Virus record (IMG/VR): IMGVR_UViG_3300002137_000286
Coordinates: 1 to 25,681 of that record
Strand: one strand, 5' to 3'
DNA: 25,681 bases
From: a virus
Every line of letters begins with the position of its first letter. Position 1 is the first letter of the stretch. Shown piece by piece: positions 7,751 through 25,681 of this stretch. A model generated the notes under the pieces. That model saw only the letters and a program-made list of their open reading frames with translations, searched no databases and was not told the origin of the DNA. A program made the position numbers and the translations under genes.

Positions 7751-8086
7751 ATGAAAACCTCAGAACTTAAAAACCTCCTTAAAGAAGCAGTAAAGGAAGC
7801 AATCCAAGAGGAGTTACGTGATATTTTACTGGAAGCAGTTAAAGGATCCAAACCCCAAATTAATGAATCATATGCTCAACCCGTAATTAACCAACCTAAA
7901 CAACTTACTTCTGAAGAACGAAGAAATATGTTTTCAGGTATATTAGGTGAAATGCAACAAGGTGGTGTAGCAAATACAGCATATGCTGGAACAATGCAAG
8001 CTTCTGGTCCTGTAGATGCTATTAATGGATCATTACCTGAAGGAAGTGTAGGATTAGATCAAATAATGAACTTAATGAAAAAATAA
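7751..8086 (+). CDS. Small virion-associated protein with N-terminal amphipathic helix
   Basis: A 111-residue protein. The first 30 residues form one strong amphipathic, charged helix with two L-L-x-E-A-like motifs (LLKEA at 9-13, ILLEA at 25-29). Residues 31-70 are Pro/Gln-rich, and the C-terminal part is Gly/Ala/Gln-rich and low in complexity, ending in a short helix (LDQIMNLMKK). No family is recognised. It sits directly before gp25 with an overlapping stop-start (TAATG) and follows a late-type promoter motif, so it is probably a structural or assembly protein. The L-x-E-A motifs resemble T4 prohead protease sites (see findings). Confidence 0.65.
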   Translation: MKTSELKNLLKEAVKEAIQEELRDILLEAVKGSKPQINESYAQPVINQPKQLTSEERRNMFSGILGEMQQGGVANTAYAGTMQASGPVDAINGSLPEGSVGLDQIMNLMKK

Positions 8087-20872: not shown

Positions 20873-21319
20873 ATGTGGTTATATAAACAAAAGGAAATGG
20901 AGTCAATCTCCGATTTTCCTGAAAACTCTCACGGATTTGTATATCGAATCACTCATAAAGAATCAGGCAAATCATACATTGGTAAAAAAATACTCCAAAA
21001 TACATCTAAAGTAAAATTAGGTAAAAAGGAACTAGCAGAATATGCTGGTGTTGTAGGACGACGCCCATCCTATAGATTAGCAGTTAAAGAATCAACTTGG
21101 AAAACATATTGGGGTTCAAATAAATATCTTACGGAATTATATAAAACCGAACCAAAAGAAAATTTTGAACGTGTTATTCTAATTTGTGCTCCCACAAAAA
21201 AACAATTAACTTACTACGAGATAAAATATCAAATGATATATGAAGTGCTTGAAAAACCAGATGAATTCTATAACGATAACATCCTCGGCAAGTTTTTTAC
21301 AGGTGACTTTGCATCTTAA
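20873..21319 (+). CDS. Seg-like GIY-YIG endonuclease-family protein
   Basis: A 148-residue protein of the GIY-YIG superfamily. FVY (22-24) and YIG (35-37) form the two-strand signature, W77 and YWGS (79-82) follow, E116 in TYYEIKYQ is the candidate metal-binding Glu, and NDNILGKF (134-141) is the conserved-looking end. In T4-like phages similar Seg-type free-standing enzymes act as homing endonucleases, cutting related genomes to spread. Here the gene is intact and sits at the border between virion genes and replication genes, a usual place for such elements. It is distinct from the T5orf172-type protein at 22-426. Confidence 0.8.
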   Translation: MWLYKQKEMESISDFPENSHGFVYRITHKESGKSYIGKKILQNTSKVKLGKKELAEYAGVVGRRPSYRLAVKESTWKTYWGSNKYLTELYKTEPKENFERVILICAPTKKQLTYYEIKYQMIYEVLEKPDEFYNDNILGKFFTGDFAS

Positions 21320-21331
21320 TTTTTTTTTTTA

Positions 21332-21343
21332 TATATTTATAAC
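21332..21343 (+). promoter_or_regulatory. Putative late promoter (TATATTTATAAC)
   Basis: A third exact copy of the 12-mer, 21 bases before the ATG at 21365. It is preceded by an uninterrupted run of eleven T (21320-21330), the longest homopolymer in the window, which could act as an UP-like element or as the terminator tail of the gene ending at 21319. Confidence 0.6.
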
Positions 21344-21364
21344 AAATAAAAAATAAACAACAAA

Positions 21365-21712
21365 ATGAAAGACATTATAAGAATGAATCAATTAGCAGGT
21401 CTTATCACAGAAGGTCAAGCTAAAAAAATGATGGCCATTTTAAATGAAAATAAAAAAAAAGAACAAGATAATTCATTTGAAAAAGAATTTAAATATCTTA
21501 AAATTTCTCCTGAAAAATTTAAAACAGGAGATTTGTTTTTAAGAGCCCCAGAAGAAGGAGGAGAATTTTTTGACCATAAAGAAGCTATTAAAATTTTATC
21601 TATAACTTTACCTAAAGATGGCCGAGGTAATACAGCTATTATAAAAACTAAAGAAGAAGGTGATATAAAATTATCACATGCTTCATTGTATAATATAGCG
21701 AGAAAAAAATAA
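21365..21712 (+). CDS. Hypothetical protein with internal-protein-like N-terminus
   Basis: A 115-residue protein of no recognised family. The N-terminus (MKDIIRMNQLAGLITEGQAKK) is an amphipathic helix containing LITE-G at 13-17. A Lys-rich linker follows (ENKKKEQDN), then a probable small beta barrel (FKTGDLFLRAP, AIKILSITLPKDG, TAIIKTKEEGDIKLS), reminiscent of SH3-like folds by pattern only. It forms a one-gene unit with a late-type promoter motif 21 bases upstream and a hairpin terminator 15 bases downstream. The product may be packaged in the head (see findings). Confidence 0.7.
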   Translation: MKDIIRMNQLAGLITEGQAKKMMAILNENKKKEQDNSFEKEFKYLKISPEKFKTGDLFLRAPEEGGEFFDHKEAIKILSITLPKDGRGNTAIIKTKEEGDIKLSHASLYNIARKK

Positions 21713-21727
21713 AAAATATATTAAGTT

Positions 21728-21755
21728 AAGCTTGGGAAACCAAGCTTTCTTTATT
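21728..21755 (+). terminator. Intrinsic terminator with GAAA tetraloop
   Basis: AAGCTTGG-GAAA-CCAAGCTT forms a perfect 8 bp stem closed by a stable GNRA loop (21728-21747), followed by a T-rich tail broken by C and A (TCTTTATT). It ends the one-gene unit at 21365 and separates late from replication genes; the weak tail may allow read-through to the primase, whose start is only 20 bases away. Confidence 0.75.
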
Positions 21756-21766
21756 ATATTACGGTT

Positions 21767-22696
21767 ATGATAAATCAAAGTCTAGTAGCACTGACTAACT
21801 CTGTGCTCGGTTCTGGCAAATCAACAGCACGAGGTAATTATGCCTATCACTGTCCGCTATGCCATCATACAAAACCAAAACTAGAAATTAATTTATCTGA
21901 AAATCCTAAAGGTGAAAATCCTTGGCATTGTTGGGTTTGTGATAAAAAAGGTAAAAAATTATACCAATTATTTAGATCAATAGATGTTTCTCCGGAGGCA
22001 ATGTCCGAGTTAAGATCCATTGTAAAATACGTTGGTCCTGATACTAAATTTCAAACTGAGGAAAAAGTTAAACTTCCTAAAGAATACCAAACATTTGATA
22101 ATGTAAAACAATCGGATATTGAAGGTAGACAAGCAGCATCATACCTTAAAAATAGAGGTATAACTGAAGATGATATTTTAAAATATAGTATTGGATATTG
22201 TGCTACAGGTAGATATGCTAAAATGGTTATAATCCCATCATATGATGCTAAGGGTACATTAAATTATTTTACAGGCCGTTCATTTGAAAAGGAACCATTT
22301 ACAAAATACAGAAACCCATCAGTCTCCCGTGATATAATTCCATTTGAATTATACATAAACTGGAACATTCCTTTAATTTTATGTGAAGGACCATTTGATG
22401 CCTTAGCTATTAAACGTAATGCTATACCATTATTAGGCAAAAATATTCAGTCTAATTTAATGAAAAAAATTGTTACATCGAGTGTTGAAAAAATATATAT
22501 TGCGTTGGATAAAGACGCTCAAAAACAGGCATTAACGTTTTGTGAACGCCTGATGAATGAAGGTAAAGAAGTGTATTTGGTAGATATGCAAGATAAAGAC
22601 CCGGCTGATATGGGTTTTATTAATTTCACTAATCTAATTCAAGAGACATACCCCCTAACATTCTCAGGGCTATTGGAAAAAAAATTATTCCTATGA
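21767..22696 (+). CDS. DNA primase, DnaG/gp61-type
   Basis: A 309-residue protein with the two signature parts of a DnaG-type primase. The zinc finger has C29-x2-C32 with H33/H34, then C55-x2-C58 (CPLCHH...WHCWVCDKKG). The Toprim domain has E207 in LILCEGPFDALA, D248/D250 in YIALDKDAQ, and DKDPAD at 276-281. It makes RNA primers for lagging-strand synthesis with the replicative helicase. T4 gp61 has 342 residues and the same layout; no extra C-terminal helicase domain is present. The start follows the terminator at 21728 closely. The last four bases overlap the nuclease gene start (ATGA). Confidence 0.92.
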   Translation: MINQSLVALTNSVLGSGKSTARGNYAYHCPLCHHTKPKLEINLSENPKGENPWHCWVCDKKGKKLYQLFRSIDVSPEAMSELRSIVKYVGPDTKFQTEEKVKLPKEYQTFDNVKQSDIEGRQAASYLKNRGITEDDILKYSIGYCATGRYAKMVIIPSYDAKGTLNYFTGRSFEKEPFTKYRNPSVSRDIIPFELYINWNIPLILCEGPFDALAIKRNAIPLLGKNIQSNLMKKIVTSSVEKIYIALDKDAQKQALTFCERLMNEGKEVYLVDMQDKDPADMGFINFTNLIQETYPLTFSGLLEKKLFL

Positions 22697-23478
22697 AAAA
22701 AAGAAACATTAAGCAGTCTTACAACAGAATCTTAGAAATATCTGCAGATTCAAAACAAATTACTATGCCCGATTCTCGATATTATCGTAGGAACGGAAAG
22801 TATTACCCATCAATTACCTATGTACTTCAGTACTACCCAAAAGGTAAATTTTTTGAAGATTGGTTAAAAAAAGTTGGTTATGCCTCTGAACATATTGTTC
22901 GCAAAGCAGGAGAGCAAGGTACAGAAACACACGAGATGATTGAGTCTTACCTTAATGGTGAAGAATTAAACTTCCTATCAGCCTCTGGTTATCCACAATA
23001 TGATCCACTAGTATGGCAGATGTTTTTACGTTTTGTTGATTTTTGGGAAACATATAAACCAAAATTAATTGAAACTGAAGTACATTTATTTTCAGATCAA
23101 ATTAAAGTAGCAGGTACTTGTGATATGGTATGTGAGATTGAAATTGATGGTAAAACAGAACTTTGGATTATTGACTTTAAAACATCAAACCACCTCCAGA
23201 CAACATATGACTTACAAACAGCGATTTATGGTAAATGTTATGAGGAATGTTATGGTAAAAAAGCCGATAGATATGGTGTGCTATGGTTAAAATCTTCAAA
23301 AAGAGGTCCTAAAGATGGTATAATACAAGGTAAAGGATGGGAAATGTATGAATCAAAACGTACACAAGAAGCAAATATTGATATCTTTATGACTGTCAAA
23401 AAATTATTTGATCTAGAAAACCCAAAACATTCGCCTGTATTTACTGAGTTTAGAACGCAAGTTAAAAGAGAGCTGTAA
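22693..23478 (+). CDS. PD-(D/E)XK nuclease, RecB/Cas4-like
   Basis: A 261-residue exonuclease-family protein. The core motifs are in order: H80 in GTETHEMIE, E129, D144 in VAGTCDMV, D161-F-K163 in LWIIDFKTS (the PD-(D/E)XK metal-binding D and catalytic K), and Q175-x3-Y179 in YDLQTAIYG. This set, with the QxxxY motif, is the pattern of the RecB/AddB/Cas4 branch, which degrades DNA ends. An N-terminal region of about 75 residues (YYPSITYVLQYYPKG...) precedes it. The start overlaps the primase stop by four bases, so it probably acts in phage replication or recombination, or in host DNA breakdown. No 4Fe-4S Cys cluster, as in Cas4, is seen. Confidence 0.88.
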   Translation: MKKRNIKQSYNRILEISADSKQITMPDSRYYRRNGKYYPSITYVLQYYPKGKFFEDWLKKVGYASEHIVRKAGEQGTETHEMIESYLNGEELNFLSASGYPQYDPLVWQMFLRFVDFWETYKPKLIETEVHLFSDQIKVAGTCDMVCEIEIDGKTELWIIDFKTSNHLQTTYDLQTAIYGKCYEECYGKKADRYGVLWLKSSKRGPKDGIIQGKGWEMYESKRTQEANIDIFMTVKKLFDLENPKHSPVFTEFRTQVKREL

Positions 23479-23501
23479 TATGTATCACAAACACACATTG
23501 A

Positions 23502-24305
23502 ATGATATCATTGGTACAATTATTACGAGAAGCAATAAACACCCCTAAAGCAGTAATATTAGCAGGCGCCCCAGGTGCTGGTAAATCATCTATTGTTGGG
23601 GATATTATATCTGGTATGGGACTTAAAGTCCTCAACATTGATGATCATTTTATAAAAAATCTAAAAGATACAGATGTTTCATTAGATTTAAAATCATCAG
23701 GAGCTGAAGATAGAAGTAAAGCAGCAGTAGCAATGCAAGCAGCACAAAAAACATATGCTGCTGAATTGGAACAAGAAATCCTAAAAAAAGGAAATATTGT
23801 AATAGACGGTACAGCGGCTTCATATAAAAAAACAGAGCAACTGAAGGAAACCCTTGAAAGTGCTGGTTATGAAGTATTTATGGTTTATGTATATTCTTCA
23901 TTAGAAAAATCACTACGTAAAAACGAGGACAGATTTGAGCGTTCTAAAGGTGAAGACAGAAGTTTAATGCCTTTTATTGTAATGCAAACGTGGTCGGGAG
24001 TTACTAAAAACTTTATTCCTTACCTCAACTTATTTGGTGAAAATTTTGTAGCGACTACTAAAGATAAAGAATTGGTTGATGCTAAAAATTTAGAAGATAT
24101 AATTAAAACATATATTGAGCCTTATACACCCCAAAACACCAAACCAAAAACACCAGCACAACAAGCGAGTTCAGATAAACAAAAAGCCAAAACTGAACAA
24201 GATATTAAAGATTTAATGTCTAAAGAAAAAGTTGAACAACATATACAACATATCGTTTCCGCTGAGGAGGCACAATCAAAATTAAATAAATTTTTACAAT
24301 CATGA
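23502..24305 (+). CDS. Zeta-toxin-like P-loop kinase
   Basis: A 267-residue P-loop protein. Walker A is GAPGAGKS (22-29), a NIDDHF stretch (45-50) gives the acidic residues typical of zeta-type kinases, IVIDGT (99-104) is the Walker B-like strand, and R137-R152 (LRKNEDRFERSKGEDR) is a likely lid. Zeta toxins phosphorylate UDP-N-acetylglucosamine, but phage members of this fold may be nucleic-acid or nucleotide kinases; the substrate cannot be read here. No antitoxin gene is adjacent. The N-terminus (MISLVQLLREAINTP) is an amphipathic segment ahead of the domain, and the C-terminal 60 residues are Lys/Gln-rich and disordered or helical. It is coupled to the next gene by ATGA. Confidence 0.75.
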   Translation: MISLVQLLREAINTPKAVILAGAPGAGKSSIVGDIISGMGLKVLNIDDHFIKNLKDTDVSLDLKSSGAEDRSKAAVAMQAAQKTYAAELEQEILKKGNIVIDGTAASYKKTEQLKETLESAGYEVFMVYVYSSLEKSLRKNEDRFERSKGEDRSLMPFIVMQTWSGVTKNFIPYLNLFGENFVATTKDKELVDAKNLEDIIKTYIEPYTPQNTKPKTPAQQASSDKQKAKTEQDIKDLMSKEKVEQHIQHIVSAEEAQSKLNKFLQS

Positions 24306-24673
24306 AATTATTAGATTTATTAAAGGAAGTTGAAGATTCCCAAGTAATAAAAGAAGTTGAAGGTATCCTTACAGATGAAATCGGTAAATTTTTTGTAGTT
24401 ACAAAACCCATAGGTAAAATGGATAATGTAGAGGATTTAGTTAAAGAATTAACAATTGCCGAACTTATGTCATTGTCTATAGAGGCAAAAGATATTTTAG
24501 GTATTTTTAAAGATAAATTGGGTGCTAAAAGAGCAGGATCTGAAGCACTTAAAGAATATGAATCTACTCTTAAAGAGATGGAAGATGCTATGGAATCATT
24601 CCGCAGTGCTAAAAAAGACATTGAAGAGAAGAAACAATTAGCAAAAGAAAAAATACAAAAACTAAGACAATAA
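24302..24673 (+). CDS. Small charged helical protein, unknown function
   Basis: A 123-residue protein, highly charged and almost entirely helical; the last 50 residues (EYESTLKEMEDAMESFRSAKK, then DIEEKKQLAKEKIQKLR) form a long coiled coil. The N-terminus (MKLLDLLKEVEDSQ) carries the LLKE-V motif at 6-10 and a second VIKE-V nearby. Such acidic/basic helical make-up recalls scaffolding or internal head proteins, but no family is recognised. The start overlaps the kinase stop (ATGA) and the following gene begins directly after its stop (TAAATG), so the three are probably one translation unit. Confidence 0.7.
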   Translation: MKLLDLLKEVEDSQVIKEVEGILTDEIGKFFVVTKPIGKMDNVEDLVKELTIAELMSLSIEAKDILGIFKDKLGAKRAGSEALKEYESTLKEMEDAMESFRSAKKDIEEKKQLAKEKIQKLRQ

Positions 24674-25681
24674 ATGAACCTATTTACCAAGTCTCTAATT
24701 TCCGAGTTGGTTGGTGATAATATTGTTACCGCTCTATATGGCGGAGGATTTAAACCACCAACTAAAGGCCATTTTGAGGTAGTTCAAAAGGCACTTACCG
24801 AATTTCCAGAAATAGACAAGTTTATTGTTTATGTTGGGTCAGGTGAGCGTAATGGAATTACTCAAGCTGAGTCCTTATTGATTTGGGAAATATATAAAAA
24901 ATATTTAGGAGATAAAGTAGAAATACAACCATCAAAAGCACCAATAGGTGATATTATACGTTATGGAAAGAGCCATCCTGAAGAGGTGGTTTATTTTATT
25001 ATAGGTGCTCGTGATGGAAATGAAGGTGATTTACAAGATGTTGCTTTAAGAACATCAGGTGTAGAAGATAAATATCCAAACGTTAAAATTAAAGTTATCC
25101 AAACCCCAGATGCTAGTATAAGTGGAACTAAAGCACGAGAAGCATCTAAAAAATCCCCTGAAGCATTTTATAAATTTTTACCCCCAGTTATAAATGACAA
25201 TGAACGTTTAGAAATTTTTGGTTATATACAAGATGTTGTAACTGAAATAGTAACAGATACAGAAGTTATATGTGATGGATGTGGTTGGGAATGGTCTATA
25301 GTAGATGGTGGAGATGATTTATATATGTGCCATAAATGTGGACACGATAATTCCCCTAAACAATTAAATGAAAATGCTTCATATTCTAAAGATATAGATG
25401 TTAAGGAAAAAATATTAGAATTAACTAAACATATGTTAGCTAAGGGTATGAATATCAAACCTTTACCTAAAGTTAAATTCGTAAACGGTGACAGCAACAA
25501 CGCACGTGAGTTTCTCGGTAAAACAGCGTATTATGACCCGAACAACTTCACAATCACGTTATACACTGAAGGGCGACATCCTAAGGATATAGTACGTTCA
25601 TTTTCACACGAAATGATTCATCATATCCAAAATCTAGAAAACAGATTAGGTGATGTTTCAACTACAAATACAATGGAGGAT
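24674..25681 (+). CDS. Nucleotidyltransferase - zinc ribbon - HExxH metalloprotease fusion (3'-partial)
   Basis: An open frame of 336 residues that runs off the right edge without a stop. Residues 18-185 form a HIGH-superfamily nucleotidyltransferase: GGGFKPPTKGH at 23-33 is the G-x-F-x-P-x-x-x-GH ATP-binding motif, FIIGARDG follows at 108-115, and ISGTKAR at 149-155 is the second motif (as in NMN adenylyltransferases and related enzymes). Residues 196-225 form a zinc ribbon (C200-x2-C203, C219-x2-C222, ending CHKCGHDN). Residues 312-316 (HEMIH) are an HExxH metalloprotease motif. The substrate could be NMN or another nucleotide precursor. It begins with LISE-L at 8-12. The start is fixed by TAAATG. 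Confidence 0.85.
   Translation, partial: MNLFTKSLISELVGDNIVTALYGGGFKPPTKGHFEVVQKALTEFPEIDKFIVYVGSGERNGITQAESLLIWEIYKKYLGDKVEIQPSKAPIGDIIRYGKSHPEEVVYFIIGARDGNEGDLQDVALRTSGVEDKYPNVKIKVIQTPDASISGTKAREASKKSPEAFYKFLPPVINDNERLEIFGYIQDVVTEIVTDTEVICDGCGWEWSIVDGGDDLYMCHKCGHDNSPKQLNENASYSKDIDVKEKILELTKHMLAKGMNIKPLPKVKFVNGDSNNAREFLGKTAYYDPNNFTITLYTEGRHPKDIVRSFSHEMIHHIQNLENRLGDVSTTNTMED

Follow-up and report, generated by a model that had tools for sequence, protein, structure and literature searches.

Exchangeable N-terminal tags in relatives of Flavobacterium phage vB_FspM_immuto as candidate capsid targeting sequences

The window analyzed here, a 25,681-base piece of viral DNA with 26 genes (IMG/VR record IMGVR_UViG_3300002137_000286), is a fragment that stops short of the head-gene region. 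Five of its proteins, encoded from positions 7751, 21365, 23502, 24302 and 24674, begin with a short helix ending in L-[LI]-x-E, and the original prediction took them for a set of head proteins injected into the host with the DNA. The tag is real and constrained. In related phages at least four classes of such tags are spread over about 155 body families; they stand at the N-terminus, are swapped between bodies, conserve a Glu and hydrophobic residues, and co-occur with prohead protease and capsid genes. Judged from sequence, these N-termini are probably capsid targeting sequences of the phage T4 type, expanded into a modular cargo-loading code.

In the proposed mechanism, a short amphipathic helix with hydrophobic residues 6, 3 and 2 places ahead of the Glu would carry its protein to the core of the prohead, the S77 prohead protease of the phage would then cut behind the tag Glu, and the freed protein would remain in the head and exit with the DNA. 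The system would be modular, its classes exchanged between bodies and its tagged genes in excess in the block between exonuclease and capsid genes. Targeting, packaging, cleavage and injection would lead to action on the host, which by analogy with T4 might come before transcription starts. A propeptide of the T4 type is preferred because it accounts jointly for the position, the residues, the Glu, the protease, the capsid sites and the swapping.

Phages compared

The comparison set comprises Flavobacterium phage vB_FspM_immuto (immuto, 160,410 bases) and six long relatives (G001, G002, G003, G005, G006 and G013), the relatives being the Immutovirus group. Immuto is the closest annotated phage match of the window’s nucleotidyltransferase (40.9%) and baseplate wedge protein (44.8%); the window’s kinase has distant matches only among annotated phages, those of Methylophilales, Pelagibacter and Agrobacterium (26.8–34.6%). 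Contig G019 (18,185 bases) matches window bases 21766–25681 at 95.6% and extends further right. Gene starts were taken from our own gene caller, which on immuto recovered 212 of 239 annotated stops and 179 starts. Body families are single-linkage BLAST groups, of which one large group may be chimeric, and genes below 60–140 aa, the minimum depending on the test, were dropped. Control-phage loci were left out of the class D Glu count, the YHFT signature count and the multi-class family count given below.

The motif at N-termini

The five N-termini, re-read from the sequence, are as originally described: MKTSELKNLLKE-A (7751), MKDIIRMNQLAGLITE-G (21365), MISLVQLLRE-A (23502), MKLLDLLKE-V (24302) and MNLFTKSLISE-L (24674). 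The pattern L[LI]xE with Glu at residues 6–17, compared with shuffles of residues 2–25, is found in 5 of the 26 window genes (mean expected 0.57, maximum 4 over 2000 trials), a count that proves little by itself because the pattern was chosen after the window was seen. A loose pattern (two hydrophobics, x, Glu) shows no excess in the window alone (4 vs 2.6, reached in 77 of 300 shuffles). Over the 473 body families of the seven relatives and the window, the excess of L[LI]xE over shuffled N-termini that had been predicted does hold, with a family-weighted count of 20.5 against 8.6 ± 2.5, reached by 0 of 300 shuffles. Its rate in the 271 families of at least 115 aa is 0.051 at residues 6–17, 0.038 at residues 18–29 and 0.004–0.029 beyond.

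The tighter motif Phi-x-x-Phi-Phi-x-E, in which Phi is hydrophobic, has a spacing from the Glu that is kept in four of the five window tags, that of 24674 being the misfit. Enrichment of this motif in the seven relatives ranges from 2.1- to 6.1-fold, and all seven lie above the shuffle mean (z 2.4 to 7.8; 0 to 6 of 500 shuffles reach the count), and no motif excess is seen in two Cellulophaga phages without a relative of the immuto protease. Look-alike N-terminal helices rich in Lys, Glu and Leu could arise by chance, the more readily as the pattern L[LI]xE is short and T4 DNA ligase fits even the tighter motif. Such coincidence is very improbable given the codons of the fixed residues, which vary (clearly so in tag B, below), and the swapping of whole tags on one body; as a general account it is refuted by the shuffles, the inner positions and the phages without a protease match, and it may hold for the 7751 protein.

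Tag classes and their exchange

Four classes were defined: tag A (MDNFDLKKYLAEG), tag B (LRMQMLAGIITEG), class C (MKKSELKxxIKE) and class D (MxxLxxLLxE, or MISLxxLLxE in its narrower form). The single tag of the original prediction is thus a real shared ending, but one that closes several distinct tags. All totals for tag A, tag B and the families are lower bounds, drawn from the matches listed. Of the 230 distinct occurrences of tag A, 227 are N-terminal, and the tag sits on at least 85 body families; for tag B the figures are 156 of 159 and at least 67 families. The DNA pattern used in the scan requires no start codon. An exact-pattern scan found tag A in at least 120 stretches of viral contigs, and in the genomes of 84,980 prokaryote species it found one stretch, in a metagenome-assembled genome (MAG) that also carries genes of this phage group. 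That bacterial MAG (L423, JAAEPJ010000459.1) holds contigs of the phage group with tag A, portal and baseplate, and is probably mis-binned.

Classes A–D together comprise 492 distinct tagged genes among 4127, which is not a genome-wide rate because the loci were partly fetched by tag. The tagged genes fall into 155 body families at E ≤ 1e-3, 107 of them single-member, or into 167 at 1e-6. The expectation that the tag would serve as a finder of further candidates was borne out. More than one class occurs on the same body in 10 of the 155 families, or 11 of the 167, and the tags have therefore been swapped as modules. The clearest case is one body that carries tag A in L441:2732-3283 and tag B in L426:5003-5551, the two being nearly identical in the displayed residues behind the tag. 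Portability is suggested by these evolutionary swaps in 10–11 families. A second Glu site inside the tag is common.

In tag B the codons of the fixed residues vary about as much as in the bodies, with four codons for Arg7 and five for Leu11, and it is therefore the protein that is kept. In view of this variation, an element acting in the DNA or in translation is not favoured as the only cause, tag A being less clear.

The exchange is also apparent when no motif is imposed. In a set of 704 proteins, each 140 aa or longer, residues 2–26 give 165 pairs across different body families that score at least 45, against 9, 8 and 1 pairs at three inner sites and 2 at the C-terminus. The largest N-terminal cluster comprises 19 proteins of 16 families that start with M[DN]NFDLKKYLAEG or a close variant. 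Several other clusters are ordinary, consisting of nucleotide-binding starts or of conserved genes split by the grouping, and a naive reading of the 165 pairs is thereby weakened. Counted per genome with another threshold, N-terminal pairs number 28 in G002, 22 in G001, 15 in immuto (part of them lipoprotein-like signal starts), 13 in G013, 7 in G006, 5 in G003 and 3 in G005. Other phages have 5 (Mel-JY01, with 3 at an inner position), 1 (S-PM2), 1 (HTVC008M) and 3 (T4, one being ipII/ipIII); G019 and each of the two Cellulophaga phages without a protease match have none.

Prohead protease, capsid and placement of tagged genes

A gp21-like protease, and the same site in scaffold and capsid, had been proposed as features to look for; such a protease is found, as are matching sites in capsid and protease. 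In immuto, gp070 matches Pfam Peptidase_S77 (8.9e-35) and the capsid protein matches Gp23 (6.3e-84). A relative of the immuto protease is present in 12 of 18 long records, and Pfam S77 in 10 of the 22 tag-bearing records, most of which are fragments, so that about 8.6 of 22 would be expected from their lengths with an assumed 160 kb genome; Gp23 is found in 9 of the 22. Of the 12 tag-bearing records without S77, two (G032 and G039) carry the portal gene close to an end, at 0.7 and 1.6 kb, one of 124 kb (G028) has a baseplate gene and no portal, protease or capsid match, and the other nine have no portal match.

The capsid proteins of all six relatives compared contain Q[LI]V-x-E, with Val rather than Leu/Ile at P3, about 20 residues ahead of the conserved WAG[VI]ALPLVRK. 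The protease starts with [LIV]L[IV]E-T in six of seven phages, the Glu being residue 7 or 8, and with LLIN in immuto. These starts can be likened to that of T4 gp21, which has LIE-9 according to excerpts of PMC9026906.

Genes with the tighter motif are concentrated near the head genes. Between the exonuclease and the major capsid gene it is found in 30 of 115 genes, compared with 27 of 532 elsewhere (pooled p 2.6e-10). The count covers four genomes, immuto (9/22 vs 10/190), G001 (10/34 vs 4/66), G006 (5/32 vs 4/150) and G013 (6/27 vs 9/126); G002, G003 and G005 were left out. This placement bears on the possibility that the helices target another virion structure or partner, such as tail, baseplate, portal or a docking protein, with the Glu serving docking and not cleavage. 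The protein at 7751 and its relatives lie in a baseplate operon and have a class C-like start, and the 27 matching genes outside the block would be at home in such a scheme. It is nevertheless unlikely, in view of the excess inside the exonuclease–capsid block, the presence of hydrophobic-x-Glu where capsid and protease would be expected to have it, and the position-by-position agreement with the T4 targeting sequence.

The tags could also be sorting or regulatory peptides without a virion role, such as docking helices for replication or lysis, or degrons, that were spread by recombination. The bodies are mostly uncharacterised and primase and exonuclease genes adjoin the cargo genes, as this idea would have it. 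It fails, however, to predict similar sites in the N-terminal regions of capsid and protease or the match to the T4 positions. Equal richness of early proteins in the motif had been named as a refutation of head targeting, but the early blocks of immuto are poor in it: the loose form is found in 15 of 137 genes in 1–81.5 kb, compared with 19 of the 37 genes that make up the tag-array and head blocks. Peptides of this kind are thus quite improbable, more so than tags for another virion structure.

The kinase and its tag

The gene at 23502..24305 (+ strand) encodes a P-loop kinase of the zeta-toxin/adenylate-kinase type, a candidate packaged cargo, with a Pfam Zeta_toxin match at 8.4e-16 (58.4 bits against a cut-off of 22.3). 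A Foldseek search of the PDB placed the zeta toxin 3q8x first (E 7e-6), followed by adenylate kinases. Zeta toxins have UDP-sugar kinase activity and an epsilon antitoxin partner. The kinase tag, MISLVQLLRE of class D, occupies 23502..23531 (+ strand), with a predicted cut after Glu10.

Of 101 distinct N-termini of the kinase family, 70 of standard length and P-loop form were used for entropies, the 31 non-standard ones being left out. Positions 4, 7, 8 and 10 are conserved (0.00, 0.32, 0.19 and 0.11), as is position 2, and positions 5, 6 and 9 are variable (2.15, 2.10 and 2.17). In the capsid targeting sequence of T4 internal protein IPIII, positions 4 and 7 act in targeting and positions 8 and 10 in processing, as stated in excerpted text of PMC9026906; these functional positions are all conserved in the kinase tag. 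The chance that all four would fall within the five most conserved of positions 2–14 is 0.007. Glu10 is found in 69 of the 70 N-termini; 51 of the 52 whose representative locus was retrieved by a route other than the kinase have it, and it is invariant in alignments of 48 and 50 rows; [LI][LI]xE occurs in 98 of the 101.

The predicted structure of the kinase has a mean pLDDT of 84.9, and its sole segment below 50 is residues 6–11, ahead of the first strand. In this model the tag is conserved yet lies outside the confident fold. The kinase body carries class D in 88 distinct genes and tag A in 7. Across class D as a whole, 133 genes from 22 families have Glu at residue 10, and 88 of these genes are kinases. 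Two genes have Asp there, three have Gln and none has Lys, and 11 genes of 3 families have the Glu one place early.

Kinase homologues of other phages were also noted. In Agrobacterium phage Atu_ph07 (L245:211-5611), four consecutive genes start with MRWEQLTE (twice), MRWEQLNE and MKWNDLNE, with a YRGM stretch behind each of these starts. The kinase homologue is part of the fourth gene, and among three of the four genes scanned Pfam matched the kinase part alone. In Pelagibacter phage HTVC008M (L243:14989-17438) the kinase homologue directly precedes a cytidyltransferase gene, an order shared with the window’s relatives. The kinase starts with MIPFILKE-G there, and the cytidyltransferase with MKTLKELLRK, which lacks the Glu.

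The other tagged proteins of the window

The five proteins are supported to different degrees as candidates for the proposed injected set. Candidacy is well supported for the kinase and for the coiled-coil protein encoded next to it at 24302..24673 (+ strand, reading frame), a candidate packaged cargo without a Pfam or PHROG match. The tag of the latter, MKLLDLLKE (24302..24328, + strand), is class D-like and one residue shorter, and was assigned from homologue N-termini; all 11 distinct N-termini of homologues have [LI][LI][KNR]E, which in two cases belongs to a class C tag.

The gene from 24674 to 25681 (+ strand) runs off the window and encodes a nucleotidyltransferase with a HExxH stretch (Pfam CTP_transf_like, 4.1e-4), a candidate cargo; in contig G019 the protein has 1312 aa. 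Homologue N-termini mark MNLFTKSLISE (24674..24706, + strand) as the N-terminal extension of this nucleotidyltransferase-peptidase. Its membership is partly supported: of 59 distinct N-termini, 41 have an extension of at least 15 residues and 39 of those hold [LI]xE, whereas 6 others escape the classing rule. A 783-residue model of the protein has a pTM of 0.35. In G001 (L201:17629-19977) and relatives the protein is multi-domain and combines the nucleotidyltransferase and HExxH with a phosphatase-like part (DMDGV) at its C-terminus. Of 62 distinct cases, 39 have the phosphatase part and the nucleotidyltransferase in one frame and 23 have them apart, about three of the latter looking like pieces of the fused form; many of the separate phosphatase parts, by eye, have their own start ending in Ile/Leu-Lys-Glu.

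The small protein at 21365..21712 (+ strand), between segE and primase, is a candidate cargo by virtue of its tag class. The tag MKDIIRMNQLAGLITE at 21365..21412 (+ strand) belongs to class B (the LRMQMLAGIITEG type); our own gene caller starts the gene six codons later, at 21383, and the protein has no body homologue in the loci compared. The interval 20873–21766, from the segE-like GIY-YIG gene (Pfam SegE_GIY-YIG) to primase, thus holds one class B gene in the window; G019 and G001 have no gene there, and L027 has a single gene of class A. The equivalent interval of immuto, matched by eye and lying after a gene with a similar start, has several genes, three of which fit the tighter motif. 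As its content differs among relatives, the interval resembles a cargo insertion slot.

The small baseplate-operon protein with the class C-like start MKTSELKNLLKE (7751..7786, + strand, from homologue N-termini) is a doubtful member. The helix is kept in four N-termini of homologues and one of these has Asp at the Glu position, so the protein was not counted in the set.

Two further features of the window were noted: tRNA-Leu (taa, 1315–1399) and tRNA-Gly (acc, 1561–1634) lie beside small genes, and the first frame (1–426) may, by eye, be of the T5orf172/GIY-YIG type.

Bodies carried by the tags

Most tagged bodies have no functional match. Representatives of at least 110 aa were scanned from the 85 class A and 67 class B families; Pfam matched five families among 54 class A representatives and two among 55 of class B, each on one member, and PHROG matched 19 families for class A, 15 of them without description, and none for class B. 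Seven tagged genes, some of them near-copies, contain a YHFT stretch resembling ADP-ribosyltransferases. This signature occurs in 7 of 460 tagged and 9 of 3185 untagged genes (p 0.002, uncorrected for relatedness), and one of the genes matches Pfam Tox-ART-HYD1 at 4.7e-4, below its cut-off. ADP-ribosyltransferase-like cargo would fit, since T4 Alt is annotated as an injected ADP-ribosyltransferase, although this is a suggestion only. A tagged 171-residue protein (L395:3413-3928) with GRGEQGKVY and DFHTGNIG...IFDL looks protein kinase-like by eye and has no Pfam match.

The balance tips slightly towards an open-ended delivery code, in which interchangeable head-entry tags would act as N-terminal cassettes over about 150 families and each virion would carry its own assortment of effectors. 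These would include P-loop kinases, nucleotidyltransferase-peptidases, ADP-ribosyltransferase-like and protein-kinase-like proteins, and many proteins without a known role. Phage proteins that enter the host with the DNA are known for few phages. If the reading is true, a readable tag would allow viromes to be searched by sequence, giving hundreds of uncharacterised candidates for early takeover and counter-defence, and would supply naturally occurring tags with which proteins might be packed into phage heads. It would also show a targeting peptide spreading across unrelated genes.

Controls and points to the contrary

Other phages with a protease match served as controls. L[LI]xE is in excess in T4 (9 vs 3.7, 4/300) and S-PM2 (6 vs 1.9, 2/300), hardly so in Mel-JY01 (5 vs 2.5), and not in HTVC008M (3 vs 2.2). 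A wide form of the motif is found in 15 called genes of T4, of which eight were looked up. By annotation ipII, ipIII, alt and gp24 (internal, capsid or shell) fit, as does gp2, which protects the ends of the injected DNA and which we take to be a virion protein.

Several observations weigh against capsid targeting as the general explanation. T4 DNA ligase, pseT.1 and e.5 match the wide motif and are not annotated as virion proteins, and the match of the ligase means that the motif is not specific by itself. The tighter motif shows little or no excess in S-PM2 (6 vs 3.8), HTVC008M (6 vs 4.0), T4 (11 vs 7.1) and Mel-JY01 (10 vs 5.4), all of which have a protease match, and the expansion is therefore probably not a general trait of such phages. 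Excerpts of PMC9026906 give the Alt propeptide as about 7 residues, so that Alt is not cut at the Glu picked by the motif. In the nucleotidyltransferase family, 12 of the 59 N-termini begin at the fold and carry no tag. The Glu conservation is informative only for the kinase, the coiled-coil protein and class D, because the patterns used to retrieve many of the loci already require the Glu. Leu6, Leu10, Ala11 and Gly13 of tag A use fewer codons than the bodies, and this low variety, which fits recent spread by recombination, may leave room for some DNA-level constraint. The modular pair test, finally, finds no pair within the window, which as a fragment ends before the head genes.

Comparison with known systems

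Searches on capsid targeting in related phages led mainly to papers on T4, P1 and SPN3US, and the comparison draws on excerpts of PMC9026906, PMC5694885, PMC9024508 and PMC7824862. The tag strings do not occur in the literature searched, and none of the papers listed for immuto concerns its virion.

In phage P1, an N-terminal signal of DarB sends the protein and a reporter to the head, the first 30 residues being reported as sufficient (PMC9024508, in part). The logic of N-terminal head targeting would be the same, in another phage lineage. The ejection proteins of SPN3US and phiKZ are cut after Glu by the prohead protease, the motif in SPN3US being A-x-E, and two processed paralogues have an identical 15-residue N-terminus, according to the excerpted text of PMC5694885. 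They differ in that, in the same excerpts, several propeptides exceed 100 residues and gp45 alone has a T4-like length. The delivery code outlined above would be comparable in logic to the secretion signal of bacterial effectors.

The closest likeness is to the internal-protein tag of T4 (MKTYQEFIAE, on ipII and ipIII), an N-terminal peptide of 10–20 residues, like those described here, with hydrophobic residues at 4, 7 and 8, Glu10 and the ending Leu/Ile-x-Glu; the IPI tag is described as similar in the available part of PMC9026906. An S77 protease and a Gp23 capsid occur in the same phage group, and the tag may be portable between proteins. The propeptide of the T4 vertex protein gp24, MAKINELLRE, annotated as cleaved by gp21, shares LLRE and Glu10 with the window’s kinase, but gp24 is a shell protein and not cargo. 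The likeness is one of residue pattern only, the peptides being too short to show descent.

The comparison with T4 made in the original prediction thus carries over as regards the N-terminal position, the residues conserved, the preference for Glu, the protease and capsid genes of relatives, swapping and the excess beside the head genes. It calls for correction as regards the idea of one tag only, the 7751 protein and the untagged nucleotidyltransferases. In T4 the exact tag is on two proteins; in the present group at least four classes move among some 155 body families, and many tags hold a second Glu site.

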